The notes: generated from the letters alone by a model not told the origin. A DNA stretch of 64,000 bases from Candidatus Electronema sp. (GCA_026645415.1 JAPEVH010000051.1:1-64000); one strand, 5' to 3'; counted from the first letter of the stretch, positions 35,986-54,404 are shown. Numbers and translations are program-made.

Positions 35986-37377
35986 TTATGCCCTTGGCTG
36001 GGCTAAGTAGGCTGAAATATCTTCTGGTCTCAGGCAACTGTCCTCCAAGGCCAAGGTCTTCAAAGCCTCTAATGGGCCGGGCAGGAGGCAGGATTCAGAC
36101 TCTTGAAGGATGATTCTGCCTCCTTTTTCTTTCACTGCCTCCATACCGTTTTTCAAATCTACATCCACACCACTGAGGAGGATTAACGACATCAGAGAAC
36201 CAAAGACTTCAGAGGCAGAACGAAGGAGACTCTCTGCATCCAACGGGAGCTGGTTGAGTTGATCATCTTGACCTAAAACAACTGGTGCATTCCCTTGAAA
36301 AACAATCTGCCGCCGACCATAACAGTTACCAATTCGGCACTGCCCGCCAAGCAGTTCTTCATTCAAATTGAGCGTCGTTACAACATAGGGTGTAAAGCTA
36401 TTAAAATAAGAAGTAAGATGTTTGGCCATCCCAGGATACATATTCTGTAGTACCAGCACAGTCGTTGTCTCATCAGGTTCCAAGGTTGGAATAATTTTCT
36501 GTAACTCCAACATGCCTCCTAGCCCGCTAAGAATCAAGATAAGTTTTTTGGCTGCTTGGGTCGGAGTAATTTTGTGCTCTACTGGCTTGAGATTTTTGGC
36601 GCGACTGAGATTCTCAAAGCAAAATTCTCGTACATTCATCAGAATGTACTGGAGGCGGCGACCAATAAGCCGCCACGAATCAGGATTGATTGGTTTTGCT
36701 ACGACATCCACTGCTCCGTAGCGCATGAAATCAATCATCCTAAAAGAATGTTCATCATTAAAGTTACTCAGCAAGACTACCGGCGCAGGTGAGCGAATCA
36801 TGATATGCTTTAACGCCACGTCACCACTCATGACCGGCATAGTCATGTCTAAGGTAACAAGATCAGGTGTTTGCATTTCGAGAAACTTCAAAGCCTCTTT
36901 ACCATTAGTAGCAGTTCCGATCACCTTGGCATTAATCTGATCTTCAAAAAGCGTAACAAATGCTTTGGTAAAAAAGCGTGAATCATCAACGACGAGCACT
37001 GTTGGTAAGATAACTTGCTCATCTTCTTTTACTGGAGCGACCTTTTTTTGCTGTTCATCAAGACGACGAGCTGCCTCTAAGAGAAGAAAATTCCAAGAAG
37101 AATCTATAGTTCGATCGTTTGTTTTGTCAAAGAGCATACTGAAGGTGCCGGAAGGCCAGCTCATAATACGAAAAAATGCCTCTTCGCCAACCAGTTCACC
37201 AAACTCAGCGTGAACAATCTCGTTATTAGAAAAAAAGAGCACTCCCAAGTTATCATCGCTACTCAGCACACTCAGCTTGCGGTCATCTCCAGCCAAGCAG
37301 GCAAACTGGACAAGATCTACCAAACTCAGGCCTTCTATCTCTCCAACAAAGCCGTTTGTGGCAGATGTGTTGTTCAT
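35986..37377 (-). CDS. DUF4388/PATAN-REC-CheB-like protein with dead esterase domain
   Basis: 463 aa. DUF4388 (PATAN, about 8-110), receiver domain (about 125-245, VLVVDDSRF, LDMTMPVMSG, AKP) and a CheB methylesterase-like domain (about 265-460). The esterase triad is lost: the catalytic Ser position in GaSTGG reads LSGLGG (Gly), and QHM reads QNM (His to Asn); the GMGxDG loop reads GVDVDLKNG. Acts probably as a phosphorylation-controlled output or sink, not as a demethylase. Last gene of the chemosensory run, oriented with it. Confidence 0.82.
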   Translation of the reverse strand: MNNTSATNGFVGEIEGLSLVDLVQFACLAGDDRKLSVLSSDDNLGVLFFSNNEIVHAEFGELVGEEAFFRIMSWPSGTFSMLFDKTNDRTIDSSWNFLLLEAARRLDEQQKKVAPVKEDEQVILPTVLVVDDSRFFTKAFVTLFEDQINAKVIGTATNGKEALKFLEMQTPDLVTLDMTMPVMSGDVALKHIMIRSPAPVVLLSNFNDEHSFRMIDFMRYGAVDVVAKPINPDSWRLIGRRLQYILMNVREFCFENLSRAKNLKPVEHKITPTQAAKKLILILSGLGGMLELQKIIPTLEPDETTTVLVLQNMYPGMAKHLTSYFNSFTPYVVTTLNLNEELLGGQCRIGNCYGRRQIVFQGNAPVVLGQDDQLNQLPLDAESLLRSASEVFGSLMSLILLSGVDVDLKNGMEAVKEKGGRIILQESESCLLPGPLEALKTLALEDSCLRPEDISAYLAQPRA

Positions 37378-37389
37378 ATTGGTTTACTG

Positions 37390-38154
37390 CTACAGGGCGT
37401 TAAACGTGACATGGGCGGCGATAAACACCAGCATGAGGACAAAAAATTCTTTAAAGCGCGTTTCTGGCACGTGCTGAAGCAGCCGCGAGCCAAGTTGGGC
37501 ACCTATCAGAACGCCAATGATCCCTGGAAAAGCTACTGGCCAAGGAATGCTCCGCCCAAGAAGTAAATGTGCAAGTAATGCCGCCGTAGAAAGGATGAGC
37601 ATCAAGACGATACAGGTTGCCACGGATCTGATCATGGATAGGCCACAGCGCATATTAAAAAAAGGAACTAACCAGTCCCCTACCCCAATACCAAGAAAAC
37701 CTGTCAGCACACTGCCCATAGCAGCCATAGGCCGACCTTGGCGGGCAGCCTGTACATCAGCTTGATCTGAACCTTGGACAAAAAAATCATCCCCGCGCAA
37801 AAAAGCATAGGCGATAAAAAAGATGGTTAAGCCAAGGAATAGTTTGATCCATACTGGACGAAGGATCACGGAAAGGAGTACTCCTACCCCAACACTTGGC
37901 AGGCCCACCAAAGCCATCATGATGACTAATGGCCAGCTCACCAAACCAGCTTTGCTATTGCTTACTGATGCACTGAGCTGCCCGAAAATTTGAATAACAA
38001 TGGTGCAAATAACCGCCTCGTCAGCCCGAAGATGCGTAAAAGAAAGTAAAACGGGCATCCATAAAACCCCACCGCCTAAGCCAAAAAACATCGCTACTGT
38101 AGCGATACTTATGCCGACTGGCAGCATCAACCAGTTTGCTTCCGCAATCAGCAC
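37390..38154 (-). CDS. TSUP (TauE/SafE) family membrane exporter
   Basis: 254 aa, about eight membrane helices. It begins with FGLGGGVLWMPVLL, a TSUP repeat motif, and has the second half GFLGIGVGDWLVPFF. TSUP proteins move sulfite, sulfoacetate, taurine-derived anions or other small anions. Presence beside an ABC importer of the nitrate/sulfonate type suggests an anion theme. Start overlaps the stop of the HAMP gene by 7 bp. Confidence 0.88.
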   Translation of the reverse strand: MLIAEANWLMLPVGISIATVAMFFGLGGGVLWMPVLLSFTHLRADEAVICTIVIQIFGQLSASVSNSKAGLVSWPLVIMMALVGLPSVGVGVLLSVILRPVWIKLFLGLTIFFIAYAFLRGDDFFVQGSDQADVQAARQGRPMAAMGSVLTGFLGIGVGDWLVPFFNMRCGLSMIRSVATCIVLMLILSTAALLAHLLLGRSIPWPVAFPGIIGVLIGAQLGSRLLQHVPETRFKEFFVLMLVFIAAHVTFNAL

Positions 38155-38696
38155 TTATAAAAACTCCTGCCAAATTCGGTCAACGTCTCGTCTAGCTCAT
38201 CGAGCAACTCTACAGCCTCATCAACTCTTGTTGCTTCAGCACCTTCGGTCAAGGTCAAGCGGAGCTGTTCGGCCATATTTTTGGCCAGCAAGATCAGTTC
38301 TTGCTCATTGGCGTTGAGATCGTTGATATGTCGAGCTAATTCTCCTAATTCATCTTTACTCTCTTCAGACAGGGCAACGGAAAAGTCACCTGCACTCATT
38401 GCCCTAGTTCGCTCAATAATTTGCTCTAAAGGGAAGAGGATTCGCTTAATGAACAGGGTCAATACCAAGCCGATAGCCAACAGCAAGGTACTTAACATTA
38501 CCCTGACTTTGAGTAAAATATGACCGACTAAGTCCCTAGGTATGGTGCCACTCAGTTGTTCTTGAAGCCGCCCTAAGATTTCACTACCTCGAAGAAAGAA
38601 CTCTATTTCTACGGCCATTGTCAAAAAGACAATGCCGATAAAAACAATATAAAAACCCATTTGGCGCTGAAGGCCACTTTTAGGAATACCGAGCAT
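38148..38696 (-). CDS. HAMP-domain membrane protein without output domain
   Basis: 182 aa. TM1 (about 12-30), a short periplasmic loop, TM2 (about 65-84), HAMP (about 85-135: PLEQIIERTRAMSAGDFSVAL, DELGELARHIN) and a coiled-coil tail. No kinase, cyclase or MCP signalling domain follows. A second protein of the same plan lies at 47496-48161 in this run. They may act as adaptors next to the MCP/CheA array. Confidence 0.78.
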   Translation of the reverse strand: MLGIPKSGLQRQMGFYIVFIGIVFLTMAVEIEFFLRGSEILGRLQEQLSGTIPRDLVGHILLKVRVMLSTLLLAIGLVLTLFIKRILFPLEQIIERTRAMSAGDFSVALSEESKDELGELARHINDLNANEQELILLAKNMAEQLRLTLTEGAEATRVDEAVELLDELDETLTEFGRSFYKC

Positions 38697-38709
38697 CTCT
38701 ATCTGCTCA

Positions 38710-39123
38710 TCAATCTTCTTGGTTACTGAATAACTTTTCTAAATATTTTTTAAAGGCTTTCAAATCATCTTCGTAAATGTCTTTAAAACGAACGCCTATC
38801 TCGTAATTTTTTTCATCCTCTAGCTGCTGAACCCAGATGACCTCAGCGATAGCCGTTAAGGGTTTAGAGACAGAGCCAGTGTCGATAATAGCAACAATAT
38901 TATTAAGATACTGCTGCCATCCCCGTAGATCAATAACAAGCTGGAGAATCGAGCCTGGCTCGTACAACTCGTCAGTAATAAAGCAAAGTCCCTGTTCTGC
39001 CAAATTTTTAGTAACAGCTGGTTGAGCTTGTAGATTGATCATAGGATACTGGAGTTTAGTAACCAGTAGGGATGCTTGTCGATCAACTCTAGGACTTTCG
39101 CGTCTATTTTTCACAGCTACCAT
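38710..39123 (-). CDS. PilZ-domain protein (cyclic-di-GMP receptor candidate)
   Basis: 137 aa. KNRRESPRVDRQASLLV provides the RxxxR element, and the beta-barrel follows; the second motif (D/N-x-S-x-x-G) is atypical and reads KNLAEQGLCF. It also has an IGVRFKDI strand. Binding of cyclic di-GMP is therefore likely but not certain. Sits between an ABC substrate-binding protein and a HAMP protein in the chemosensory run. Confidence 0.82.
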   Translation of the reverse strand: MVAVKNRRESPRVDRQASLLVTKLQYPMINLQAQPAVTKNLAEQGLCFITDELYEPGSILQLVIDLRGWQQYLNNIVAIIDTGSVSKPLTAIAEVIWVQQLEDEKNYEIGVRFKDIYEDDLKAFKKYLEKLFSNQED

Positions 39124-39142
39124 AGCCTAATATGTTGTTTTT

Positions 39143-40216
39143 TTATGGCAATATATCATCAATTTGGTCAATATCCGTTTTCTTTACCGATTCGGCAAAA
39201 CGGGCATCGACCAACCCTTTAACACTGTTACTTTTAACCAGACCATGCTTAACCATCAGATCGGCAATTTGCTGCATTTCCGCTTCTTTTGGAACAAATT
39301 GATCAAAAATCACTTTCCTAGCATGAAGAGCATATTTGACTAAACCCACAGGCTGCGACCAATATTCTGCTGCAATTTTAGCTGCTTGGTCTAAATGTTT
39401 TTCTGCCCAAAGACCAGAACGAGCTGCACCTTGAACGAGCTTGCGTACTACCTCTGGATCCTTATCTATCGTGCTCTGCTTGACAAGGACTAAGTTACAG
39501 ATAAAAGAGGGCCAGACATCCTCGACATGAAATACTAAATCAGAGATGTTGTTTTGTAAGGTTTTTGAAGCAAATGGTTCACCAACATAATAAGCTGCCA
39601 GATCTGACTTACTCGCTAAAGCTGAGGCCATATCTGGTGGATTCATCTCTACAATGTTGATCTGGCCATTCAGCCCATATTTGTCCATCAGCTCTAGCAA
39701 ACTGAGATTATGACCAGAAAAGCGCATGGGTACTGCCACTGTTTTCCCAACTAATCCACGCAGATTACGAATATGCAAACTTTTCCTTGCCACCAAGGAG
39801 CTTTCATGCCGGTTACCAATATAAACGACCTTCACATCCTCGCCTTGCTGCCGCAACACTATGGATAACGGGGCAATAATAAAAGCAGCTTGGATTTCAT
39901 CGTTACGTAACGCCTCTGCCATTTCAGCAAAGGCACTGAACTTTAGGGCCTTAAAGTAAATATCACCTTTGTTTTTGCTGACATGGTCTAAAAGTGGAGC
40001 AGCCATGTTTGTAATAACAGGCATGTAGCCCATTGCGACAATTTTTCGGTTCCCGTGATCAAAATTCAACCAAAAATGGAGGGCGGAAATCAGTACCAGC
40101 CAAGCAACTGTGCCAACAATAAGTCGCCAACCTTGAGACAGTTTTCGCCAAGAAGTCAGCACCGATCTATAAAAGGAATCGATTCTCTTCAGCCAGAATT
40201 TTTGCTTAAACAGCAT
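39143..40216 (-). CDS. Membrane-anchored ABC substrate-binding protein (NrtA/SsuA-like)
   Basis: 357 aa. An N-terminal uncleaved membrane helix (about 32-50) is followed by a type II periplasmic-binding fold: VAMGYMPVITNMAAP, AFIIAPLSIVLRQQGEDVKVV, GKTVAVPMRFSGH and AAYYVGEPFAS. The family binds nitrate, sulfonates, taurine, bicarbonate or thiamine precursors; the ligand cannot be read from this. It overlaps the ATPase gene by 11 bp. Confidence 0.87.
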   Translation of the reverse strand: MLFKQKFWLKRIDSFYRSVLTSWRKLSQGWRLIVGTVAWLVLISALHFWLNFDHGNRKIVAMGYMPVITNMAAPLLDHVSKNKGDIYFKALKFSAFAEMAEALRNDEIQAAFIIAPLSIVLRQQGEDVKVVYIGNRHESSLVARKSLHIRNLRGLVGKTVAVPMRFSGHNLSLLELMDKYGLNGQINIVEMNPPDMASALASKSDLAAYYVGEPFASKTLQNNISDLVFHVEDVWPSFICNLVLVKQSTIDKDPEVVRKLVQGAARSGLWAEKHLDQAAKIAAEYWSQPVGLVKYALHARKVIFDQFVPKEAEMQQIADLMVKHGLVKSNSVKGLVDARFAESVKKTDIDQIDDILP

Positions 40217-41000
40217 AATTCACTCCCAGCATAAAGAATAGCTCATCTCTAAGTTTGGCTAATTCATGATTTTTCTTGAAAAAATTGCGAGGGTGAGGAA
40301 AGTCGAGCCTACGGTTCATTTTGATCTGCGAGGGTCTCCGGCTAAAAACAATGATCCGGTCGCCCATGACCAAGGCATCATCAATATCATGCGTGACAAT
40401 CAGAACGGTCTTGCCAAGGAACTGGTGCATGTTAACCACTTCCTCACGCAGCTTCATGTGGGTGAGAAAATCTAGGCCACTGAACGGCTCATCCATGATT
40501 AAGATGTCAGGATTAACAACAAGGGCGCGGGCAAGTTCAGCCCGCCGGAGCATACCACCGGAGAGCTGATGCGGATAGTGATCCTCAAATCCCTCCAGTT
40601 CCACCATTTCGATATATTCCTGAATTTTTTCGCACTGCTCATCTTTATTTTCCATGTGACGCAGGCCCAGTTCTACATTCTGCCAAACTGTCATCCACGG
40701 CAGCAAGCCGCTATGCTGAAAAACAAAGATATTGTCTGAGCTAGGCCCGGTGATTTCCTTGTCATCAATCATTACCGAACCAGAACTTTGCCGATCAAAA
40801 CCAGCGACAATACGCATGAGTGTCGATTTACCACAGCCAGATGGACCGAGGAAACAGACCATCTCGCCTTCCTCGATCTCAATATTGATATCCTCAAGTA
40901 CCGGCACCACTTGTCCGAAAGAACTTACTTCCTCCTCGCGTTTGATTTTACGCCGGTTGATAAACTCCTTATTTAGACCAACTATTTGAATATGTCCCAT
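40206..41000 (-). CDS. ABC transporter ATP-binding protein (NrtD/SsuB/TauB-like)
   Basis: 264 aa from ATG 41000; the frame continues upstream without conserved sequence. Walker A GPSGCGKST, Q-loop FVFQHSGLLPW, signature LSGGMLRRAELARAL, Walker B ILIMDEPFSGLD and H-loop VTHDIDDAL. Has an extra N-terminal insert (INRRKIKREEEVSSFG) compared with SsuB. Powers import by the neighbouring permease and binding protein. Confidence 0.92.
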   Translation of the reverse strand: MGHIQIVGLNKEFINRRKIKREEEVSSFGQVVPVLEDINIEIEEGEMVCFLGPSGCGKSTLMRIVAGFDRQSSGSVMIDDKEITGPSSDNIFVFQHSGLLPWMTVWQNVELGLRHMENKDEQCEKIQEYIEMVELEGFEDHYPHQLSGGMLRRAELARALVVNPDILIMDEPFSGLDFLTHMKLREEVVNMHQFLGKTVLIVTHDIDDALVMGDRIIVFSRRPSQIKMNRRLDFPHPRNFFKKNHELAKLRDELFFMLGVNYAV

Positions 41001-41010
41001 TATTGTTCCG

Positions 41011-41778
41011 TTATATCTGCCGGATGCCCCAAGAGGCGGAATCAATCCTGCCCAGTCGCCGCATGATAGAATCGAGCAGAAGACCAATCAGACCAATGAC
41101 AATCATGCCATCCAAAACATAATCCATTCGCAGGCCGTTCCGAGCATCAAGAATCAGATATCCCAGACCTGACTGGACAGCAATCATCTCTGCTGCGACA
41201 ACGACGATCCAAGAAATTGTTACTGTTAAACGGAGAGCGGTAATGATATCAGGAATAATTGCTGGAATAACGACTTTTTTAATCACCTCAGTCCGACTAA
41301 AGTCAAAGTTGGCCGCAACATAGAAATAGGTTGGATTAATCGACTGCACCGCTACTGTAGTAGAGACCACAATTGGAAAAAAGCTGGACAGAAAAATTAG
41401 AAAAATAGCTGGTTGATCGCCAATGCCAAACCAGAGCATGGCCAAAGGAATCCACGCTAATGGTGAAATAGGCCGGAGAAAATGAATAACCGGATTAAAG
41501 AGCAACGCAAAAGTCTCACTTCGGCCAAGAATAATGCCAAAAGGAATACCTAAAGCAGCAGCTAAGTAAAATCCAGCCGTGACCCGAAACAGACTAGCTA
41601 CAGTGTGTTTAAAGATAGCACCATTACGGATCAGCTCAATCATGCTAAAAAAAACTTGGCTAGGGCCAGGCAAGGAATTGGTATTCAAACCGGCAAAGCG
41701 GACTGTCAGCTCCCAAGCAATGACGAGTACGGTAAAGGAAAGAAAGGGAGCTAATTTCTCAGCAAGAGAATTATTCAT
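41011..41778 (-). CDS. ABC transporter permease (NrtB/SsuC/TauC-like)
   Basis: 255 aa, about six membrane helices. The EAA-like loop reads AANFDFSRTEVIKKVVIPAIIPDIITALR, and the C-terminal WIVVVAAEMIA region matches this family. First of three transporter genes (permease, ATPase, binding protein) downstream of the chemosensory genes, 48 bp after the ParA gene. Confidence 0.92.
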   Translation of the reverse strand: MNNSLAEKLAPFLSFTVLVIAWELTVRFAGLNTNSLPGPSQVFFSMIELIRNGAIFKHTVASLFRVTAGFYLAAALGIPFGIILGRSETFALLFNPVIHFLRPISPLAWIPLAMLWFGIGDQPAIFLIFLSSFFPIVVSTTVAVQSINPTYFYVAANFDFSRTEVIKKVVIPAIIPDIITALRLTVTISWIVVVAAEMIAVQSGLGYLILDARNGLRMDYVLDGMIVIGLIGLLLDSIMRRLGRIDSASWGIRQI

Positions 41779-41826
41779 GGGTAGGTCTAGTCAGAGAGAA
41801 AACAGAGATGATGTGTATCTTTTTGT

Positions 41827-42738
41827 TCATCCAGCAATTTCCTCGGCAAGCTGCTTGTACTGCTGGGCAGCTCGGCTATTTTCTGCGTAATAGCTAAGTG
41901 GTGCGTTAACGATGTGAGATTCCTGTATTTGATCATCTGCATCAATTACTGTTTTGAAGAGATTATCACCACAGGTCTGACGGAGTTTGTCTTGAATGAC
42001 CTTTTCAGAAGTGCTTCGGTCATTACGCATGGTAATCAGCACCTTACATTCTACCTCTCTATTGACCTTTTTCTTCAACACTTTAATAATGTCATGAACT
42101 TGACTAACGCCGTGCATTGATAAATATTCACAGGTGCTTGGAATAATAACCAAGTTAGCAGCCACTAAAGCATTGAGCGTGAAAAATTCAATAGAAGGTG
42201 GCGTATCAATCAAAATATGATCATAGTTATCTTGAATGCTTTTTAGGTGCTCTTTAAGTAGGTATTCAAAGTTGTGCTGACTAAGATATTGTTTTTTCAG
42301 CAAGGCCATTCTACTTCCTGAAGGGAGCAAAGAGAGATTAGGATACTTCGTCTTTAGTACTACCTCGCTAATATTTTTCCCGCCAGTTAGTACATCATAA
42401 AAAGATTTGACTCCCCGAAACCCCAGAAGAATAGTCAAGTTAGCCTGCACATCAAAATCAATGAGTAAGACCTTCTTGCCCATTTTTGCAAAAGCGGCAC
42501 CAAGATTGAGGCAAGTGGTTGTCTTGGCCACGCCTCCTTTTTGATTACTGATGGCAATGATCCGGCTGTAGTCAGGCTGTAGCTCATCTTGAAGTAAAAT
42601 AGATTCTTCAGCCAATGCAGGCCGTTGCACCATAAAACGGAAACCGCATTTATGACAGCGCACCTTCAGCTCCGGCTTATCCAGCATGCTGTCAGCGAGC
42701 TTGTATCTGGTTTTACACTGTTCACATGTGATGATCAT
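41827..42738 (-). CDS. ParA/MinD-type ATPase with N-terminal zinc ribbon
   Basis: 303 aa. The N-terminal MJ0042-type zinc ribbon (CEQC and CHKC, residues 5-35) is followed by a ParA ATPase (about 58-300) with deviant Walker A SNQKGGVAKTTTCLNLG, LLIDFDVQANLT and HILIDTPPS. ParA proteins in che operons (ParC type) position chemosensory clusters in the cell. Location between cheB-like and transporter genes, all on one strand, fits that role. No parB is next to it. The zinc ribbon is unusual for ParC and could bind another array protein. Confidence 0.87.
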   Translation of the reverse strand: MIITCEQCKTRYKLADSMLDKPELKVRCHKCGFRFMVQRPALAEESILLQDELQPDYSRIIAISNQKGGVAKTTTCLNLGAAFAKMGKKVLLIDFDVQANLTILLGFRGVKSFYDVLTGGKNISEVVLKTKYPNLSLLPSGSRMALLKKQYLSQHNFEYLLKEHLKSIQDNYDHILIDTPPSIEFFTLNALVAANLVIIPSTCEYLSMHGVSQVHDIIKVLKKKVNREVECKVLITMRNDRSTSEKVIQDKLRQTCGDNLFKTVIDADDQIQESHIVNAPLSYYAENSRAAQQYKQLAEEIAG

Positions 42739-42776
42739 GATTTCTTCCTGCTATCTGACCGGCATTCCCGGAACGT

Positions 42777-43832
42777 TTATTTTTTCACAACTGAGCTGAT
42801 GGCTTCAGCGAGTTTGTCTTCTTCAGCAACAATATCAACCAATTTTCTTTGAATAGCCATTGCTGCGAGATTGGGATAGATGCAGCTTTCCACACTTTGG
42901 ACAATGGTTGTACCTCCTTTTGCCTGAATAGCGGCAAAACCTTCGGAACCGTCATCTCCATAACCGGTCAACAGTATGCCAACCGTTTTTTCTGCAAAAA
43001 TCTCTGCTGCTGAAAGAAACAAGGTGTCTAAAGGTTTATCTGTTGGAGTACCTGTTTTAAAGCAGGGATCGCCGTAATCGTTGAATTCAATAGTCAGAGA
43101 GAGCAGGTTGGATTGAATATAGCACACCCCGCGTTGCAGGATTTTGCCATGTTCGGCTACGGCAATTTTCCAACTGGTGAATTCATTGAAGCGTTCAACA
43201 AACGAATGGATAATTTTGGGTGAGATCTCTAGCATGATGACTGCTGCTGCTGAAAGATCCGCTTCCAGCCTAGTCATCAAACGAATGAAGGAATTTGGTC
43301 CAGTAAGAGATGTACCAATGACCAGCAAAGAGCTAAAACTAGCGTTTTCTTTATCTGAAGAGCTTTGCCGATGCTTTTTGACCCGTACTCGCCGGATGTT
43401 CTGAAAATTAACCGCAGTTGCCAGTTTAATCCGGCCGACAATCTGTTGTTTGGCAACGTGAATATCGCTGGAAATGGCCCCTGAAGGTTTGGCAACAAAA
43501 TCAACCACTCCCAACCTTAGAGCTTCAAAAGTGATGGAACCATCACTAAAAAGAGAACTGAGTACGACAATCGGCACTGGTGACTCGATCATGATATGCC
43601 GAATCGCCTGAAGTCCATCCATAACTGGCATATCGATATCCAGTGTAATAACATCAGGGTGGAGTTCCTTGATCTTTCTCAGTCCTTCCGCGCCATTACG
43701 CGCGACACCAATGACTTCAATCTCAGGATCAGATTCTAGCAGATCGCTGATCGCCTTAGTCATGAAGGTGGCATCATCCACCACAAGAACTTTATATTTT
43801 CTATCCATGCCGCTCTTGTTTTCAGCCTCCAT
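42777..43832 (-). CDS. CheB-like response regulator, catalytic His lost
   Basis: 351 aa from ATG 43832, which has GGAGG 5 nt upstream; a longer frame reaches 43898. Receiver (about 12-130; VLVVDDATFM, LDIDMPVMDG, AKPSG) plus methylesterase-like domain. The Ser motif is roughly kept (IGTSLTGP), and the Asp loop is kept (LTGYGDDGSEG), but QHM is replaced by MLEIS, so the catalytic His is absent. Usual CheB length. Directly follows cheA. Confidence 0.85.
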   Translation of the reverse strand: MEAENKSGMDRKYKVLVVDDATFMTKAISDLLESDPEIEVIGVARNGAEGLRKIKELHPDVITLDIDMPVMDGLQAIRHIMIESPVPIVVLSSLFSDGSITFEALRLGVVDFVAKPSGAISSDIHVAKQQIVGRIKLATAVNFQNIRRVRVKKHRQSSSDKENASFSSLLVIGTSLTGPNSFIRLMTRLEADLSAAAVIMLEISPKIIHSFVERFNEFTSWKIAVAEHGKILQRGVCYIQSNLLSLTIEFNDYGDPCFKTGTPTDKPLDTLFLSAAEIFAEKTVGILLTGYGDDGSEGFAAIQAKGGTTIVQSVESCIYPNLAAMAIQRKLVDIVAEEDKLAEAISSVVKK

Positions 43833-43907
43833 GCCGCCTCCAAAGTCTGAAGCGTTGTACTGCGATAGAACAGGTGAAGATCTTGTCTTCACCAACAAGC
43901 TGCTTGC

Positions 43908-46900: not shown

Positions 46901-47414
46901 GGAGGAAAATATTGTACAGTTCCTCATCATGCTCCTCATTCATGCTTTCTTCTGCCAGTAAACCGGGCTTTACTTCTTCCATCTCTGGCTGGGCATCTTC
47001 ATCATGTTCTTCCGTCTCTTCAGGAGCATCGCCTTCGACAATTTGACGGATACGAATCAGTAAATCCTCAACCTCAGATTCTTCACTCTGATTACGTTCT
47101 AGCTCTTCAACAAGTTTAGTAATACGGTCTTTGCCTTCAATAAGTAAATCTGTGACAACTGGGGTTAAGGATTGCTCACCCTTGCGAATTAAATCAAGTA
47201 GATTCTCTAGCTTATGAGACAGTTCGGCGATCCGATCAATGCCAACAAACTGAGCGGCTCCTTTAATGGTATGGGCAGAACGAAAGATTTCATCCATAAT
47301 CTCTCGACTTTCTTGCCCTTTCTGTTGTTCAAGGCGAAGCAGACTGCCCTCCATCTCCTCCAGATGTTCCTGTGCCTCGATAATAAAATCTGGCAGCATT
47401 GACGTGTCTATCAT
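43908..47414 (-). CDS. cheA: CheA histidine kinase with one active and two decoy HPt domains
   Basis: 1168 aa from ATG 47414 (MIDTSMLPDFIIEAQ). Typical CheA is 600-750 aa. P1 HPt with phospho-acceptor H48 (RSAHTIKGAAQFVG). Two further HPt-like helical bundles (about 163-265 and 375-485) share the SSANYM core but have Lys206 and Ala422 in place of His. A long acidic/Pro-rich stretch follows (about 500-760). Then come P3 dimerisation (SSIRVDADKIDYLMNQVGELVV), ATPase with IIRNAVDHG and SGRGVGMDVV, and a P5 CheW-like domain. Autophosphorylates and feeds the CheY and CheB-like receivers. The decoys may tune receiver docking. Confidence 0.93.
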   Translation of the reverse strand: MIDTSMLPDFIIEAQEHLEEMEGSLLRLEQQKGQESREIMDEIFRSAHTIKGAAQFVGIDRIAELSHKLENLLDLIRKGEQSLTPVVTDLLIEGKDRITKLVEELERNQSEESEVEDLLIRIRQIVEGDAPEETEEHDEDAQPEMEEVKPGLLAEESMNEEHDEELYNIFLQQLKENIPFLYAQTVELSLSVDKQDVLYRCSDSIKSLKSSANYMGYEKLAKHYSDWQSEISKAIEQLSSGKMPNLAFMQDYIDEIIRSFPQAMEGYSDKEDDARPEAGTLLQEETVSESDFDHFFDQPDDEDEDEEPAAPVEPLATDLDAALQSIFSEDEEGEEVDLSPASTVEEELVAPLPSPPAFRSSQERKLPHLEVEMDGEEHDQELASIFLKKLQTDIHFIEGQVNQLATATDKKEILQGCQDAIARLASSANYMEYQSLSAFCGAWRLALQEDIARLDLGEGAADASKTLQRFTQEILKVYPQVITHQEPEEAQVAETEKLDTKKLDEPLATTLLSLPETEEKTSETAAAEEQSELTAEPTSSLADEAKEEKADDHELFSRLSSALEQNMSQTGTASPDDHVDSVIEQIMDKSEEQKLTLPSPIPLASVADEEEEVMSGAAALLSVPLLPHHKEEEKKAKPLATPLGLADKKQAKTKEQQAPKAADKEEQQTESAASTPITEPKPKKAEVVPEAVLKKLELPVQETLDKEEDSEEAEDKQTAGVSRKPTARSSIRVDADKIDYLMNQVGELVVSRAYFAQLVNEMRSLQQQLLEDSRLTKSELKPLHEFAFRLSEAGIHLGRVSNELQEGVMKIRMLPIEQLFKRYPRLIRDLTHRTDKDVRLITQGEETELDKMVIESMSDPLIHIIRNAVDHGIETTEERKRVGKPAQGTLILEAYHESDHIVLEISDDGKGIDPQRIRMKAVEKGLFTSDEMERMSDLEVLRIIMEPGFSTAEKTTETSGRGVGMDVVKKNIERLNGMIEISSKPGQGTKMRIKIPLTMAIIQALMVRVGREKFTIPLTTVEETLRIFRHEISVIEGVDVIHIRDITMPIFRLAKIYNIDRPQEGEDKMFVVIVSTGTQEVGLVVDELLGQEEVVIKPLADYLRTESGFGGATILGDGGISLILDIPELVKLAADDQADRQEERAKSYQRKRRKRIVNAEQTQPQTIH

Positions 47415-47495
47415 CTTGATCACCCTATCACAGTTTGACAATCCGAGTTGTTGCGGCCTCTCCGGCACGACAGCACCGGACGCTCCTCTTTTTGT

Positions 47496-48161
47496 TCAGT
47501 TCTGCTCATCGTTACCGCAGTCAGATTCAGCCAGCATCCGTTCATGCTCCAGCCGAATTTCGAAATAACTAAAAGATAAGACGATGGCTTTCAAATCTTC
47601 ATTGTTTTGCCGCATTTTTTCTAAATCGTCTCGGATAATAGATAATGAATCTGGCATATCCAATCGCTTTGTAGCCTGTTCCAGCAATTGGCGGCTCTGC
47701 TGGGTATGATTCCAAACAAAAAGCAGTACCTCCTGCATATTGACTGTCAGATCATTGATACTTTCCCCTAAACGGCCAATTTCGTCTTTTCGAGCAATCC
47801 GAGCAAGACTATCTAAATGCCCGTCTGTCATCCGACGAGTGGCCCTATGGATGCTAGATAATGGTTTAATCACATAATGTTGGAAAAAGAAAAAAACAAG
47901 AATCTGAATAGCAAGCAGAAAAGTAAGCAGCACCAACGTGGAACCACGTTCATACAGGACTCCGACCACTGCAAGTAGCGTCAGCACAAAGGTCATGGCA
48001 AAGAAAAACAAGGCCCTGCTTTTTAGGGTTAGGCCCTCTGCTGCCTGTAACAAGGTGGACATAGGCGACAAATCCGTGATGAGGTATTCTTCCTTCAGAT
48101 GCGCGGAGCCGCCGAGCCTGACAAGCTGTCCATAGTCCATAGGCGGCAGCCGCTCTTCCAT
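47496..48161 (-). CDS. HAMP-domain membrane protein without output domain
   Basis: 221 aa. Two adjacent membrane helices (about 48-66 and 72-92), HAMP (about 93-145: VIKPLSSIHRATRRMTDGHLDSLARI, DEIGRLGESINDL), and a C-terminal coiled coil. There is no classic periplasmic sensor between the helices. Located between cheY and cheA, overlapping neither. Same plan as the product at 38148-38696. Confidence 0.78.
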   Translation of the reverse strand: MEERLPPMDYGQLVRLGGSAHLKEEYLITDLSPMSTLLQAAEGLTLKSRALFFFAMTFVLTLLAVVGVLYERGSTLVLLTFLLAIQILVFFFFQHYVIKPLSSIHRATRRMTDGHLDSLARIARKDEIGRLGESINDLTVNMQEVLLFVWNHTQQSRQLLEQATKRLDMPDSLSIIRDDLEKMRQNNEDLKAIVLSFSYFEIRLEHERMLAESDCGNDEQN

Positions 48162-48167
48162 CTAGCC

Positions 48168-48533
48168 TTACTGCTTTTTTTCTTCCTCCTCAATCATCTC
48201 TAGGATTTCTTTGGCCTTGTGCTTACTGGCAAACCCAAGTGCTCCTAGTTTTTCAACCTCGGTACGATAGACATCCTCATCTAAATTGGAGAGAAAGATG
48301 ATGTGGGCATCTTTATCGTAGCGGAGAATTTCCTTAGCAGCAACTAGGCCATCCATGTCCCGCATGGTGATATCCATTGTCACGATATCTGGCTTCAACT
48401 CTTTGTAGAGCTGAATAGCCTCGATGCCGTTTTTTGCCTGTCCTACCACAATATGTCCTGGTGGCTGAAGCAGCTTTACTATCATCTTACGCATCATCGA
48501 GGAGTCATCGACAACCAGAACCCGTTTGCTCAT
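48168..48533 (-). CDS. CheY-like single-domain response regulator
   Basis: 121 aa, a lone receiver. Key residues: acidic pair in VLVVDDSSMM (D8, D9), phospho-acceptor in IVTMDITMRDMDG (about D52), and the conserved Lys in ASKHKAKE (about K102). Threonine or serine switch residue is in FLSNLDED. Downstream of cheW by 6 bp. Output could be motility machinery or the other receivers of the run. Confidence 0.93.
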   Translation of the reverse strand: MSKRVLVVDDSSMMRKMIVKLLQPPGHIVVGQAKNGIEAIQLYKELKPDIVTMDITMRDMDGLVAAKEILRYDKDAHIIFLSNLDEDVYRTEVEKLGALGFASKHKAKEILEMIEEEEKKQ

Positions 48534-48539
48534 CTTGAT

Positions 48540-49052
48540 CTATTCTCCACTGATTGAACTGAGCTGCCGTAATTCATCTGTCATTAAAATACGGTTAAAA
48601 TCAAGCAAGATAAGAAGATTGCTACCAATATCACAAACTCCTTTAATGTAGCGGTTAGCCAGACCAGCCATAACTACCTCTGGGGGTGGCTCAATAGTGC
48701 TTTCTACAATTTTCAAGACCTTAGTGACAGAGTCAACGATAAAGCCCGTGACCCGACCTTCAATATCAAGAATCAGAATCCAAGAGTCCTTGGGCACGGT
48801 TTCTTTTCGATAAAGGCCTAATCGCTTACGTAGCTCAATTACCGGAATAATGTTGCCGCGCAAGTTAATAACTCCTTCAATGAAGTCTGGAGAGTTGGGC
48901 ACTGAGGTGATCGGAGCCGAACGAATAATCTCCTGCACCATAAGTATATCCACTCCAAACTGTTCTTTGCCTATAGTGAAGCCAACCAGCTGCATGAGCT
49001 GCTCTTTTTCTTCCCGGTCAGCTATCCTGTCGGCTGAGAATCCTTCAGGCAT
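48540..49052 (-). CDS. cheW: CheW coupling protein
   Basis: 170 aa. VGFTIGKEQFGVDILMVQEIIR, ITSVPNSPDFIEGVINLRGNIIPVIELRKRLGL, and GVCDIGSNLLILLDF are the standard CheW signatures. It links the MCP to CheA. Lies 114 bp downstream of the MCP gene in one transcription direction. Confidence 0.95.
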   Translation of the reverse strand: MPEGFSADRIADREEKEQLMQLVGFTIGKEQFGVDILMVQEIIRSAPITSVPNSPDFIEGVINLRGNIIPVIELRKRLGLYRKETVPKDSWILILDIEGRVTGFIVDSVTKVLKIVESTIEPPPEVVMAGLANRYIKGVCDIGSNLLILLDFNRILMTDELRQLSSISGE

Positions 49053-49166
49053 GAAATAGTCTCCTTATTGCGCGGCACTCCGCAAGGTTTAACGGTTTAT
49101 CAAGTGAGAAATACATCACTCCGCGCCTGCCGAAGCAGACGCGGAGATACAACAGGCAAGCAAGGA

Positions 49167-52100
49167 TTACAGCTTGAACTGCTCAACCTGATCTCGCAGC
49201 CTTGCGGAAGCGTCTGTCAGATCATTGGTAATCGACACAACCACACCAGCTCCTTCCACGGTCTTCTGTGCACCTTCAAAGGACTGCTGGGCAATCCTAG
49301 TCGCGTTGGTAGAACGCTCCCGCTGGGCAGCAACCATCTCGGTCAGATTTTCTGTACGGCGCACAATCTCGCGCATCTCACCATCAATGGTTGACGAACC
49401 TGCGGTCGCTTCAGCAACCAGGGCACTAATGATCTGAGACTGCTGCACCATAGCTGAGAGCGCGCTCTCAGCAGCTTGACGACGGTCACCCTGCTCACCA
49501 GCCATTTTTGCGATCTGCTCGGCCAGTTTGTTCAGTTCCTGAACCAAGTTCTGAACACTTTGAATGTCTCGCTCCACAACCTGGGCAACAGTCGAAATCT
49601 CTTCAATCGACTTCATGTTGTTACGACCACTGGAGTCGATAAGAGCAAGCGCGCCTTGGAGCTGCTCAGAGTAACGAGTACCCTCCTCAACTTTGGCTGT
49701 AGAGTCTTTAATGAGCTGGGTAATTTCTTTAGCAGCTTCAGAGGAACGCTGGGCCAACTTACCAACCTCGTCCGCAACAACCGCGAAACCTTTACCATGC
49801 GCACCAGCACGGGCGGCCTCGATTGCGGCGTTCAGAGCCAGCAAGTTTGTTTGTTCCGCAATCTCGGTAATAACGCCGATGATTTCCGAAATCTGGCCGG
49901 AGGAGTCAGCAATAGCTCGCATACCAGCAACCGTGTTTTCAACCGCGACACGACCTTGATTGGCAGCTTTCAGTGATTCTTGACCTTGCTGTGTAGCGTT
50001 TTCAACCGCCTTACCCATGTTCCGTACAGCAGATGTGATCTCGTTCATGGAGGCCGTTACCTGCATAACCATCTTACCCTGTTCACCAGAGGTCGACACA
50101 ACCATCGCACCTGTTTGACCCATTGCGGCCACACGGTTGGTAGCAGTTTCAGCCTCTTCAGACTGTTTAATAACCGCGCTACTTACGGTGTTCATTGACT
50201 GGAGCAGCTCGGCAATGGTGCGCTGCGATCTCTGGGCTGATTCCTGCTGGGCGCGAGCACCCTCAGCAACCTGCTGGGCAGTAGAACCCATTGTTTGAAT
50301 CAGCTCACGAGTTTTTTCTGATTGCTTCACCTCGATCTCAGCACGATCACGGTTAGCAGAAGCGCGGCCTGCCACGTCTTGCGCGTTTCGCGCAACCCTC
50401 TGGGAAACCTGCTCAACCTCACGGAAGGATTGGTTCAACTCAACAAGCATCGCGTTAAACTCAGATGCCATCTGTCCAACCTCGTCACCCGATTTTACCG
50501 GCACGTTCAGAGTCAGATCCCGCTCCGCAGCAACCTGCCGAACAACTTCAGCGATGGAAACAATAGGTGCGGCAAACCATCCACCGATGAACCACGCCAC
50601 AAGGCCGATGATGCTAAGGAAGATAATACCCGCGATGATGGCTCGGTTTCTTGCGGAGGTTACTGCTTCAAGAGCCTCTTTGGAGTCGATTTTTGAAATT
50701 AGAATCCAGTCAAAGTCAACAGTACCTGCATGCTCTTTTTTCAGATCCAGCGGGGTAGCAGCACCAAGAATGAGGTCACCAACATAGTCAGGTGCTTCAC
50801 GGAATTGACCTTGTCCTGTCTTTGCTGTCTCGTCGATCAGTTCTGTTTTCAGAGCCTGCTCTTGAAAGAGCTTCAGACCTTTCCGAGAGTCAGAACGCGG
50901 TACCTTGTCTTCATAACCAACCATGAAGGTCTCACCGGTCTCACCCAGACCTGTCTTCTCATCCATGTAGGATTGAAGAACGGTGTTGGTAATACGTATC
51001 GCAATGAGAGCAACAACCCTATCTTGCTCCATAATCGGGGTACTAATAAAGGCAAGAGGCTTACTGGCCGGAGGATAATAGGCATAGTCAGCCATTATTG
51101 TCCGTTTGCTGTCCCTAACATTTTGGAGCAGCTTACTCAAGTTGGTGTCTTTGAACTGTGAATCCTTAAATAGATTACTATGGAGTTCTTTATCCTTTTT
51201 GACGCTATAGAAGCAGTAGCCTTCTGGGTCAACCAAATAAATGTCAAAGTAGTCATAGGATTTCTGGAATTTGGTTAACAGATCCTCGGTTTCACCTGCG
51301 GCTTTTGGTACCAGAATTTCTGTCAAGGCACCAGTGGTGACCAGACCCCAGTTAACGCCCGGCACGTTTAAAGGGCGGAAGGTCGTAACCTCAAACAAAC
51401 CGGTCGGACCAATCTGGAAAAAGTTACCTGACTTACCAGAGAGTGCCTGTTTGGAGTTCTCACCAGGCTTGGGATCGCCAATCTTACCTTCTTTAACAAC
51501 ACGGTCAGAGGCCAACCTTGGATTGTCTGGGCTACCAGAAACCATATAGGACTCAAAGGTACTTTGCAGACCTTCGCGCTCTTGGACGATATCATTGATC
51601 TCTTTTGAGGAGAGCTGGTTAACAACAATACCGATTACTTCACCATCAGCCACAACCGGGGTGCCGATGAAGAGTGCTTCCGCGTTACCAGAAGGCCCAT
51701 AAGGAGCATAATCCTCCAAGGCTGTTTCTTTCATTGCTCTAGGAAAAAGGCGACCAATAGCAGAATCTTTCAGGCTGCCGGTGACCACGTTCTGGCCTAA
51801 GTCTGACTCAGGCGTTACGGCATAGATAACATCGCCCTCTGCTGTAACCAACATGGCATCATAGTAGCCATACGCCTTTACGTAGGTGGCGAACATCTGC
51901 CCGTATTTTTCCTTGTGGCCGTTCCACATACTGCCACCGATTTTGCCGCCCTCTTCCTTAAAAGATAAGGTGAAGTCTTGCATAGCAGCGACTGTACCAA
52001 GGTTGGCGGCCAAGGCGGTGATGTCAGCGAAACGCTTGTGCATATACCGCTCAATCGCCTGTTTCTTGGTACCCGCAACACCTCTCAGTTTGTCCAGAGC

Positions 52101-52364
52101 GTCTGTGTGCAGACCAGCCATAATGTCTGACAGAATGTTCATGTCGCCGAAACGCTCACCGAGGTACCGCTGAATCTCTTTCTTTTTCAGCTCACGAACA
52201 GACTCAAGCTGATGCTGGGCGCGGTCAGTCAGCGCGGTAGAAGTTGACCAGTAGTCCATGAGCGCGTTAGCAAGGTAGGGTAACGTACCTACCAAGAGCA
52301 GCAGAGCCATGAGCTTCCACCGGAGGCCCCAACCCTGCTTATAGGTAACTTCATGCTTTTTCAT
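49167..52364 (-). CDS. Large methyl-accepting chemotaxis protein
   Basis: 1065 aa, about twice usual size. TM1 (about 16-34), a very large periplasmic sensor (about 35-600) with two Cache-like repeats ([22 protein letters not shown] and [23 protein letters not shown]), TM2 (about 605-625), HAMP, and a signalling domain with hairpin tip [23 protein letters not shown]. No C-terminal CheR-docking pentapeptide (ends VEQFKL). ATG 52364 overlaps the stop of a 37-codon leader (ATGA). It is the only MCP of the run and therefore defines its input. Confidence 0.94.
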
Positions 52365-52474
52365 CCCAGCATTTCCTCCTGTCTCTGTTCCATAAACGCA
52401 GACCGGCAGACCGGCCCACCCTCTGTCTGCTGCCTGCGCCTGCCGCAGGAAATTCCTTTTAGCCGCACGTTCAT
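52361..52474 (-). CDS. Candidate 37-aa leader ORF coupled to the MCP gene
   Basis: Starts ATG 52474 behind GGAGG (GCTGGAGGAAAAAC) and ends with TGA overlapping the MCP ATG (ATGA at 52364-52361). The peptide starts [18 protein letters not shown] and contains the AGGAGG ribosome site of the MCP in its coding sequence. Features favour translational coupling, but the peptide is short and unlike known proteins, so it may be only a spacer. Confidence 0.45.
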
Positions 52475-52625
52475 GTTTTTCCTCCAGCCTCCTGTTGAAA
52501 AAATTACGATGCTTCTCTATTTATATTGAGATATTCCATTTTCCGCAAGCATCACGTAAGCGGACAGGCATTTTCCTCACTGAGAAAGTGAGGACTGTCC
52601 CCTGCTATTGGATGAAACTTTACAA
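52475..52625. other. Short spacer between the CheB-like gene and the MCP leader
   Basis: No gene or clear promoter seen. It separates the stop of the REC-PATAN-CheB gene (52626) from the leader ORF. Confidence 0.5.
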
Positions 52626-54404
52626 TTAAGTGGCTAAAATACTGTTGATAGTGTCTGGTATTTCGCCATCAGGTAGTACCGCTGCCTCCCGACAGTGTGC
52701 TGACACAGACCAAGGCATATCGCGGTACAAACAGCCAGCAGGATCTTGAACAATACCTGCTCCTCCCACCCGCAGAATTTCAGCCATACCTTCCGTGCCA
52801 TCTTCTCCAACACCAGAGAGAATAACCGCCACTGCATCTTCCTTCATCACCTCTGCAACAGAAAAGAAGAGCATATTAATCGACCCACGCTGGGTCGCAA
52901 AGGGCGCAGGTGAGAGATTAAGAAGCAAGCCTTGTTCCTGTTCATGCACGGTGAGATATTCTTCACCAGAGGCAAAATAACAAACGCCAGCTTCTAAGCG
53001 AACATTGTTTGTTGCCCGCTTGATCTGCAATGGCGAAAAACGATCCATATATTCAACAAACGGATCCAAATGCTTAGATGGTGCATAAAACATAACCAAA
53101 TAGGCAGCAGGCAGGCCAGCAGAAAGATGGGGCAGGAGTTTTAGCAACGCACCATAACCACCTTCTGCTACCCCGATAGCAACAATTTTATCGCAACGGT
53201 TACCAGATGAAATATGGGCTTGCTTATTTTTATTTACCGCCCGGACATAACGTACAGCATCTAATTCTACTTCTGAGGCAAGATGTACTTTGCGAGCAAT
53301 TTCTTTTGTTTGTTCCGCAAGATCAATATCTGCATTTCGAGAGGGTTTGGCAACAAAATCCACAGCACCATACTTGAGTGCATCAAAGGTTACTGCTGCA
53401 CCATCTTGGGTCATAGAACTGAGCATTACCGTTGGTGTAGGCGACTGAATCATCAGATGCTTGATCGTCTTTAGCCCATCCATAACAGGCATTTCTACAT
53501 CCAAGGTAATGACATCCGGCTTTAACTGGGGAATGAGCTGGAGAGCTTCTTCTCCATTTTCAGCTTCACCCACTACTTGAACAAAGGGATCGTCCTTAAA
53601 AATGCTGGCAATCACTTTGCGCATCATCTTGGAGTCATCAACAATGAACAGGCTGATTTTTTGTTCTGACTGGCTCATGCCCTCCCCCCCTCCTGTTCCG
53701 TTTTTTCGAGCAGTCTCCCTTTTTAACCTCGAAGTAACCCGGATGGTCTCAAGATCATTCAGACCAATGCTTCGCATTGTGCCTGCCTCTCCGTTTTCCA
53801 GAATAAAACCAAGAGGGGGCCAGTCAAAGACTTCTAATGCAGCCTCAACGCCTTGCTTCTTATCAAAGATGGCATGGATGAGCCGACCATTCTGAAAATC
53901 CAATAGAGCGTGTCTTTTGGTACCAAAACGGACAGAAACACGAGCAGTTCTTTGCAGAATTTCAAAAAAAGAAACTATCTTACTGGCTGCAATGCCTGGC
54001 TGATAGTCATTTTCATCCAGCCGCTGGAGACTTTCTAAAATGGCACAACCAATGATTTCTAAATTATCAGGTTTGACAAGACAACGAAATATGGAATCTC
54101 GGCAAGGACAGTTTTCTAAGGCTTTAAGTGAAGCAGGATGGCCCTCATCAATCATGACAATACATTGAATGTGTCGATAAGAGGTAGAGATAAGGGAAAG
54201 CACTTCAAGGCCATCTAGGCTAGTAGCATGGAGATTAACCACCAAAACAGCTATTTTCTCTTTCCTTAACAGAAAGAGTTCTTCACCACGGCTAGTTGCT
54301 GCCAGCACTTTATACTGACCATATGCGTCTAGCACCTCTATCAGGTCATCAACAAAGAGCAGATCGTCATCAACAATAAGAATTTGCGATATATCAGAAG
54401 GCAT
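52626..54404 (-). CDS. REC-PATAN / CheB-like fusion, probably two genes joined across a G7 tract
   Basis: 592 aa as read. First part (1-235): receiver-like (ILIVDDDLLFVDD; acceptor Asp position unclear) and DUF4388/PATAN-like (about 145-215). Second part from ATG 53678: full CheB-like protein of 350 aa with receiver (LFIVDDSKMM, LDVEMPVMDG, AKPSR) and esterase domain lacking Ser (GVAEGG for GaSTGG) and His (VMFYAP for VQHMP), with GVGEDG kept. ATG 53678 has an excellent ribosome site (CAGGAGGGGGGGAGGGC). With six G instead of seven, the first part would stop at TGA overlapping this ATG (ATGA). A sequencing error or a true G-tract change may therefore have fused two coupled genes. Confidence 0.78.
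   Translation of the reverse strand: MPSDISQILIVDDDLLFVDDLIEVLDAYGQYKVLAATSRGEELFLLRKEKIAVLVVNLHATSLDGLEVLSLISTSYRHIQCIVMIDEGHPASLKALENCPCRDSIFRCLVKPDNLEIIGCAILESLQRLDENDYQPGIAASKIVSFFEILQRTARVSVRFGTKRHALLDFQNGRLIHAIFDKKQGVEAALEVFDWPPLGFILENGEAGTMRSIGLNDLETIRVTSRLKRETARKNGTGGGEGMSQSEQKISLFIVDDSKMMRKVIASIFKDDPFVQVVGEAENGEEALQLIPQLKPDVITLDVEMPVMDGLKTIKHLMIQSPTPTVMLSSMTQDGAAVTFDALKYGAVDFVAKPSRNADIDLAEQTKEIARKVHLASEVELDAVRYVRAVNKNKQAHISSGNRCDKIVAIGVAEGGYGALLKLLPHLSAGLPAAYLVMFYAPSKHLDPFVEYMDRFSPLQIKRATNNVRLEAGVCYFASGEEYLTVHEQEQGLLLNLSPAPFATQRGSINMLFFSVAEVMKEDAVAVILSGVGEDGTEGMAEILRVGGAGIVQDPAGCLYRDMPWSVSAHCREAAVLPDGEIPDTINSILAT
53684..53690 (-). repeat. G7 homopolymer at a gene junction
   Basis: Seven G on the coding (reverse) strand. 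One G fewer gives an ATGA stop/start overlap at 53679-53676; seven joins the two reading frames. Candidate slippage site or sequencing error. Confidence 0.75.

Follow-up and report, generated by a model that had tools for sequence, protein, structure and literature searches.

A chemosensory operon of Candidatus Electronema with CheB-derived pseudoenzymes where methylation-based adaptation would be expected

Receptor methylation by CheR and CheB is regarded as the memory of chemosensory pathways. Taxis in Helicobacter pylori proceeds free of CheR and CheB, without receptor methylation, and uses CheV proteins. In cyanobacteria, the PATAN (DUF4388) CheY-like regulators PixG, PixE and LsiR take part in chemosensory or phototactic signalling connected with type IV pili; for PixE of Synechocystis, the pilus motor PilB1 is the proposed target (PMC7690835). 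The type IV pilus (Tfp) and alternative cellular function (ACF) classes include CheA proteins with several histidine phosphotransfer (HPt) domains, and HPt copies devoid of the histidine occur in ChpA and in a CheA3, without established function (PMC10782961). Here, we analysed a 64,000-nucleotide stretch (JAPEVH010000051.1:1-64000, hereafter the window) from a cable bacterium of the genus of Candidatus Electronema, the minus strand of which carries at 35986-54404 an operon encoding a methyl-accepting chemotaxis protein (MCP), CheW, CheA (HPt and kinase domains) and CheY, as identified by Pfam, together with three CheB-like proteins. This operon is a chemosensory variant with CheB-derived pseudoenzymes where adaptation by methylation would be expected. 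Unlike the H. pylori pathway, which has no CheB at all, it has kept and multiplied CheB-derived regulators.

A receiver and a CheB_methylest domain were found by Pfam in each of the three proteins (esterase-domain scores of 69, 128 and 130 bits). Using Salmonella CheB 1A2O (S164, H190, D286) as the active-site reference, the aligned triad positions read G-N-D in CheB1, S-E-D in CheB2 and A-Y-D in CheB3. The domains and codons concerned are the following.

35986..37377, minus strand: CheB1, DUF4388 (PATAN-type) domain, intact receiver and pseudo-CheB domain (Pfam; model against 1a2o)
36523..36525, minus strand: CheB1 codon G285, at the place of Ser164 (alignment to 1A2O)
36442..36444, minus strand: CheB1 codon N312, at the place of His190 (alignment to 1A2O)
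36157..36159, minus strand: CheB1 codon D407, at the place of Asp286 (alignment to 1A2O)
42777..43832, minus strand: CheB2, intact receiver and pseudo-CheB domain (Pfam, alignments)
43308..43310, minus strand: CheB2 codon S175, at the place of Ser164, kept here and Thr or Asn in many relatives (alignment)
43227..43229, minus strand: CheB2 codon E202, at the place of His190 (alignment)
42951..42953, minus strand: CheB2 codon D294, at the place of Asp286, kept (alignment)
52626..54404, minus strand: CheB3, degenerate receiver, divergent DUF4388/PATAN-like domain, intact receiver and pseudo-CheB domain (Pfam; model against 1a2o)
53166..53168, minus strand: CheB3 codon A413, at the place of Ser164 (alignment and structural register)
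53085..53087, minus strand: CheB3 codon Y440, at the place of His190 (alignment)
52800..52802, minus strand: CheB3 codon D535, at the place of Asp286, kept (alignment and structural register)

Pfam and the 1A2O alignment confirm the three CheB-type genes and the triad residues that an earlier note on this DNA had read from the sequence. Its statement that CheB2 is missing the histidine was right as to the absence and is made precise here as a His-to-Glu change. The only other CheB of this genome, which lies on contig 63 and is fused to CheR, has S-H-D at these positions and provides an internal control. The three proteins share with the methylesterase/deamidase CheB (1A2O, 6YMZ) the receiver, the CheB fold, the domain order and a near-gapless register; unlike it, they have no Ser-His-Asp triad and no CheR partner, two of the three carry DUF4388, and there are two to three paralogues per operon.

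The predicted fold of CheB1 matches whole CheB 1a2o with Z 33.4 (2.9 A, 328 residues aligned) and that of CheB3 with Z 37.0 (4.1 A, 338 residues). For the esterase domain of CheB3, comparison with 1chd gave Z 29.0 over 191 residues almost without gaps, placing A413 on S164 and D535 on D286. The alignments behind these CheB1 and CheB3 models were shallow (11 and 15 sequences), and residues 1-121 of the CheB1 model (the DUF4388 part) have a confidence under 50 and were left uninterpreted; for CheB2, fold and register were taken from sequence alignment only. The structure-guided comparison of the esterase sites, which the earlier note had proposed as a check, does not bring the triad back: the predicted folds of CheB1 and CheB3 hold the register and neither Ser nor His is recovered, and restoration by structure-based alignment was rejected. 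As far as can be read from their sequences, CheB1-3 are CheB by fold, yet lack the Ser-His-Asp triad that defines the enzyme. The loss of methylesterase/deamidase catalysis in all three CheB domains is well supported by the alignments and the predicted models.

Upstream of the esterase domain, DUF4388 of CheB1 scores 55 bits against a Pfam cut-off of 25. In CheB3 of the window the same domain is weak (0.0034, below the cut-off), but is covered by a CheB3-CheB1 profile match, and in the CheB3 orthologue of locus L170 it scores 8.5e-16. The first receiver of CheB3 is degenerate, with Asn for the acceptor Asp in the window's protein as well as in the consensus. The joining of DUF4388 to a receiver is shared with PixG, PixE and LsiR, whereas the PATAN-receiver unit is here joined in turn to a pseudo-CheB domain.

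The gene order is identical in three further genomes of the Electronema genus and in seven of the Electrothrix genus; in a fourth further Electronema-genus genome the operon lies partly on a short contig, and five other genomes from the family and order have a changed or incomplete version. The triad replacements are kept in all cable-bacterial orthologues, the sole variation being an additional loss of Asp in one CheB1. A wider scan of the CheB2 family against ~85,000 species genomes, in which the best 80 matches were kept and locus counts are therefore lower bounds, yielded at least 79 loci, 69 of them with a CheB2-type esterase domain. Besides cable bacteria, the carriers are dozens of sediment and sludge bacteria, both in Desulfobacterota (Desulfonema, Desulfobulbus rhabdoformis and many Desulfobacterales) and in Gammaproteobacteria (Candidatus Contendobacter, Competibacter, Venteria ishoeyi, Chromatiaceae and Methylococcaceae). 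Among ~161 readable paralogue domains only 4, all CheB3, are nominally Ser-His-Asp, compared with 9/9 S-H-D for canonical CheB in the same scan; the canonical CheBs of order-level relatives with readable motifs are likewise S-H-D. No CheB1 of these loci has the nucleophile Ser, and CheB3 is mostly A-Y-D, with A-H-D, S-Y-D and the four nominal S-H-D as variants. In those four, the flanking motif is altered despite the nominal triad (ASEGG, LH or IH, versus QHMP). In a fast tree, in which long branches occur within CheB1, the paralogues CheB1, CheB2 and CheB3 form one clade (support 99) separate from canonical CheB. CheB2 is always near CheA and mostly adjoins ParA; in Desulfococcaceae bacterium HSG9 (L136), the CheA-CheB2-ParA part occurs twice in one locus, in opposite orientations.

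In cable-bacterial pairs with usable synonymous divergence, the esterase domains had a ratio of nonsynonymous to synonymous substitution rates (dN/dS) of ~0.04-0.19 and the phosphorylatable receivers one of ~0.00-0.05; nearly all sequences retain the DD, D and K of the receiver. Given this purifying selection on the esterase domains and the kept receiver residues, the CheB-like proteins are maintained without a catalytic site. The three genes could be seen as decaying CheB relics of one lineage after loss of CheR, since triad loss and an absent CheR superficially fit relaxed selection; with full-length syntenic orthologues of low dN/dS in both Desulfobacterota and Gammaproteobacteria, this is hardly credible, and pseudogene decay was rejected on dN/dS and conservation.

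The CheB2 pocket may hold something else. Its loops are retained (GT[STN]LxGPN, [ED]I, TGxGxDG), and the His position is occupied by Glu or Asp in 69/70 readable sequences and by Ser in one (L187, among the 69, is a long doubtful branch). Such a degenerate S/T/N-E/D-D pocket might, judging from these residues, bind a cation or a metabolite or catalyse another reaction. The conserved acids may, however, be structural or serve protein binding, and the set is not common to CheB1 and CheB3; we consider new chemistry or a new ligand improbable.

No CheR was found in the operon or elsewhere in the window. Where CheA was in view, 0/60 system loci versus 5/6 canonical loci had a CheR (Fisher p 6.7e-7), and the number of methylation-consensus matches per MCP was 0-2 in system loci (none in 29/44; shuffled expectation ~0.3) versus 3-6 in canonical ones (p 4.6e-6), both p-values being indicative only because the loci are related and the consensus pattern is crude. 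With the same pattern, the E. coli controls Tar and Tap gave 4 and 2 matches. The MCP of the window has none, by alignment and by pattern count, as do 11/12 cable-bacterial MCPs, and it is also devoid of an NWETF-type pentapeptide, its C-terminus ending in ...VEQFKL, in agreement with the earlier note. A CheR overlooked near the operon was rejected, there being none in the window or in the related loci with CheA.

The claim that CheR is missing thus holds for this operon and for 60/60 related operons with CheA, but not for the genome, because a single CheR domain is present on another contig. It belongs to a fusion of the CheB-CheR-PAS type (L008, G000 contig 63, 7915-10842; 976 codons), which has kept its CheB triad and adjoins hybrid histidine kinases. 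The earlier note had named a cheR elsewhere, with methylation of this MCP, as what would overturn its view; the first part is borne out, in the form of this fusion beside hybrid kinases. All 16 close carriers have a CheR somewhere; those CheRs that were inspected belong to kinase clusters, to fusions or to distinct che operons. Of the 22 assemblies of wider carriers, four are devoid of CheR, namely two of Contendobacter (4.3 and 4.7 Mb), one Methylococcaceae bin and one Chromatiaceae bin (completeness not given). The receptor could be methylated in trans, with methyltransferase and esterase supplied by the fusion or by another CheR, and both the intact triad of the fusion and the 16/16 close carriers with CheR would agree with this. 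The scarcity of the methylation consensus in cable-bacterial MCPs, the location of the inspected CheRs (beside hybrid kinases, within fusions or in che operons of their own) and the four CheR-less assemblies nevertheless make methylation in trans a slim prospect.

On a Candidatus Zymogenus contig (L170, 2748-6997), CheB2 (S-D-D), CheB3 (A-Y-D), a receiver and CheR stand side by side, an arrangement that is possibly an intermediate of the system. As for other adaptation genes, CheC, CheX and CheD were not found anywhere in the 93% complete genome, which extends the earlier observation that the operon has no cheC or cheD; all three were rejected as adaptation substitutes on this basis.

The remaining signalling components of the operon are listed below.

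49167..52364, minus strand: MCP, double Cache sensor and HAMP (Pfam)
48540..49052, minus strand: CheW (Pfam)
48168..48533, minus strand: CheY-type single receiver (Pfam)
47496..48161, minus strand: HAMP1, membrane HAMP protein without output domain (Pfam; kept in orthologous loci)
43908..47468, minus strand: CheA, one intact HPt (AHTIKG) and two pseudo-HPt repeats, no C-terminal receiver (Pfam; repeats read directly)

In the pseudo-HPt repeats of CheA, SIKSLKSSANYMG (His to Lys) and IARLASSANYME (His to Ala), the phosphorylatable residue is replaced, and this is conserved in most cable-bacterial orthologues. CheA ends in its CheW domain, with no receiver. His-less extra HPts and a mostly non-flagellar setting are shared with the Tfp/ACF classes with multi-HPt CheA (ChpA; PMC10782961), likened here by their features; unlike these, the present system has no C-terminal receiver in CheA, no CheR and other accessory genes. 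A second chemosensory cluster of the same genome (L009, G000 contig 48, 7377-16001) combines an MCP with a CheA-receiver and a binding protein of the branched-chain type; neither a CheR nor a CheB homologue was matched in it, and its MCP is likewise without methylation consensus.

With regard to the output, no FliG (FliG_C) was found in the genome carrying the window, and a flagellar output was rejected for this organism. FliG is absent from 29/38 carriers, including all cable bacteria tested, and present in 9; the pathway is therefore not tied to flagella. The same genome encodes seven pilus/secretion-type ATPases. Cable bacteria move by gliding and react to oxygen (PMC12449579), and the pathway could serve this gliding or oxygen response.

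Overall, we propose, with a probability of about 0.66, a methylation-independent chemosensory pathway with phosphorylation-controlled pseudo-CheB regulators, of which the PATAN-type ones would act on pilus or gliding and CheB2 in the array. The Cache-HAMP MCP, CheW and CheA would form the signalling array, in which CheA, to judge from the HPt, kinase and receiver residues, would autophosphorylate on its single intact HPt and then serve as phosphate donor for CheY and for the three CheB-derived regulators, at their intact receivers. The dead CheB domains would be retained as receiver-controlled modules for binding partners. CheB1 and CheB3, with their PATAN-type domains, most likely pass the output to the type IV pilus or gliding machinery, and CheB2 most likely stays within the array and sets the gain, either as a regulator that depends on phosphorylation or as a phosphate sink. 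Adaptation, if any, would come from competition among receivers for phosphoryl groups, perhaps also from the ABC transporter or binding protein and the HAMP proteins, instead of CheR/CheB methylation. Since the three CheB-like proteins have lost the active site and yet stay under selection, the pathway probably runs without methylation memory. The view of the earlier note that adaptation takes another route is well supported by the comparison of loci (no CheR in 60, scarce MCP consensus, degenerate triads under selection, four CheR-less assemblies).

Several points weigh against this proposal. The CheB3 proteins of L149, L158, L161 and L165 are nominally S-H-D, and L170 has CheR beside CheB2 and CheB3, on one short contig without CheA. 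Methylation in trans is conceivable, because of the fusion in this genome and of a CheR somewhere in most carriers. Moreover, kinship among the loci makes the p-values overstate independence, and the output target and the sink role are inferred.

It could also be that the CheB-like proteins are solely phosphate sinks, their receivers draining phosphate from CheA to shape the CheY signal and their esterase domains being inert scaffolds. Sink regulators occur in other multi-CheY systems, and such a role would suit three intact main receivers, a triad broken in all three proteins and the lack of CheC- or CheX-type phosphatases among the genes found. However, purifying selection and retained pocket loops in the esterase domains exceed the needs of an inert tail, and two of the three proteins carry extra PATAN-type modules; we regard a pure sink as rather unlikely. 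The idea of the earlier note, phosphate sinks or output regulators, is plausible, and the intact receivers together with DUF4388 in two of the three sequences speak for a role in output or array regulation more than for a pure sink.

The phosphorylation-controlled, methylation-independent pathway proposed here may also represent a new, widespread chemosensory class, with a duplicated CheB fold turned wholly into non-enzymatic effector or binding modules, a new conserved acidic pocket in CheB2, methylation-free adaptation or signal shaping and control of non-flagellar motility in cable bacteria and their relatives, a tentative notion to which we give somewhat less than even odds. We found no description of the operon in open-access papers on chemotaxis in cable bacteria, on pathways without CheR and on inactive CheB, which is weak evidence, most subscription journals being outside that scope.

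The genome carrying the window comprises 2.7 Mb in 89 contigs. According to gene calls and Pfam/NCBIfam searches, the operon is a compact run of 15 genes in the order CheB3, MCP, CheW, CheY, HAMP1, CheA, CheB2, ParA, ATP-binding cassette (ABC) permease, ABC ATPase, SsuA-family protein, PilZ, HAMP2, TauE-like protein and CheB1. The intergenic gaps are ~260 bases after CheB3 and ~115 after the MCP, all other neighbours being separated by less than ~80 bases or overlapping. The genes between CheB2 and CheB1 are the following.

41827..42738, minus strand: ParA/MinD-family ATPase with N-terminal MJ0042 zinc ribbon, beside CheB2 (NCBIfam)
41011..41778, minus strand: ABC permease, sulfonate/nitrate/taurine type (NCBIfam)
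40206..40997, minus strand: ABC ATPase, sulfonate/nitrate/taurine type (NCBIfam; start codon assumed at 40997)
39143..40216, minus strand: SsuA-family substrate-binding protein (NCBIfam) with an N-terminal hydrophobic stretch seen in the sequence
38710..39123, minus strand: PilZ-domain protein (Pfam)
38148..38696, minus strand: HAMP2, membrane HAMP protein (Pfam)
37390..38154, minus strand: TauE/SafE-like membrane protein (putative family, named from sequence; position conserved)

The ParA/MinD-family ATPase is probably a candidate factor for positioning the array along the filament. A sulfonate/nitrate-type ABC transporter, its binding protein and a TauE-like exporter sit inside the chemosensory operon (37390-41778) and are conserved along with it. 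These embedded genes suggest a sulfur or nitrogen anion that is sensed or transported.

A conserved pathway under purifying selection that lacks methyltransferase, esterase site and receptor sites together, while the CheB fold is multiplied, makes methylation-free adaptation and pseudoenzyme signalling testable. For cable bacteria, it is a candidate pathway by which gliding filaments may find oxygen and sulfide, a behaviour that has been observed and for which the literature we found names no genes.

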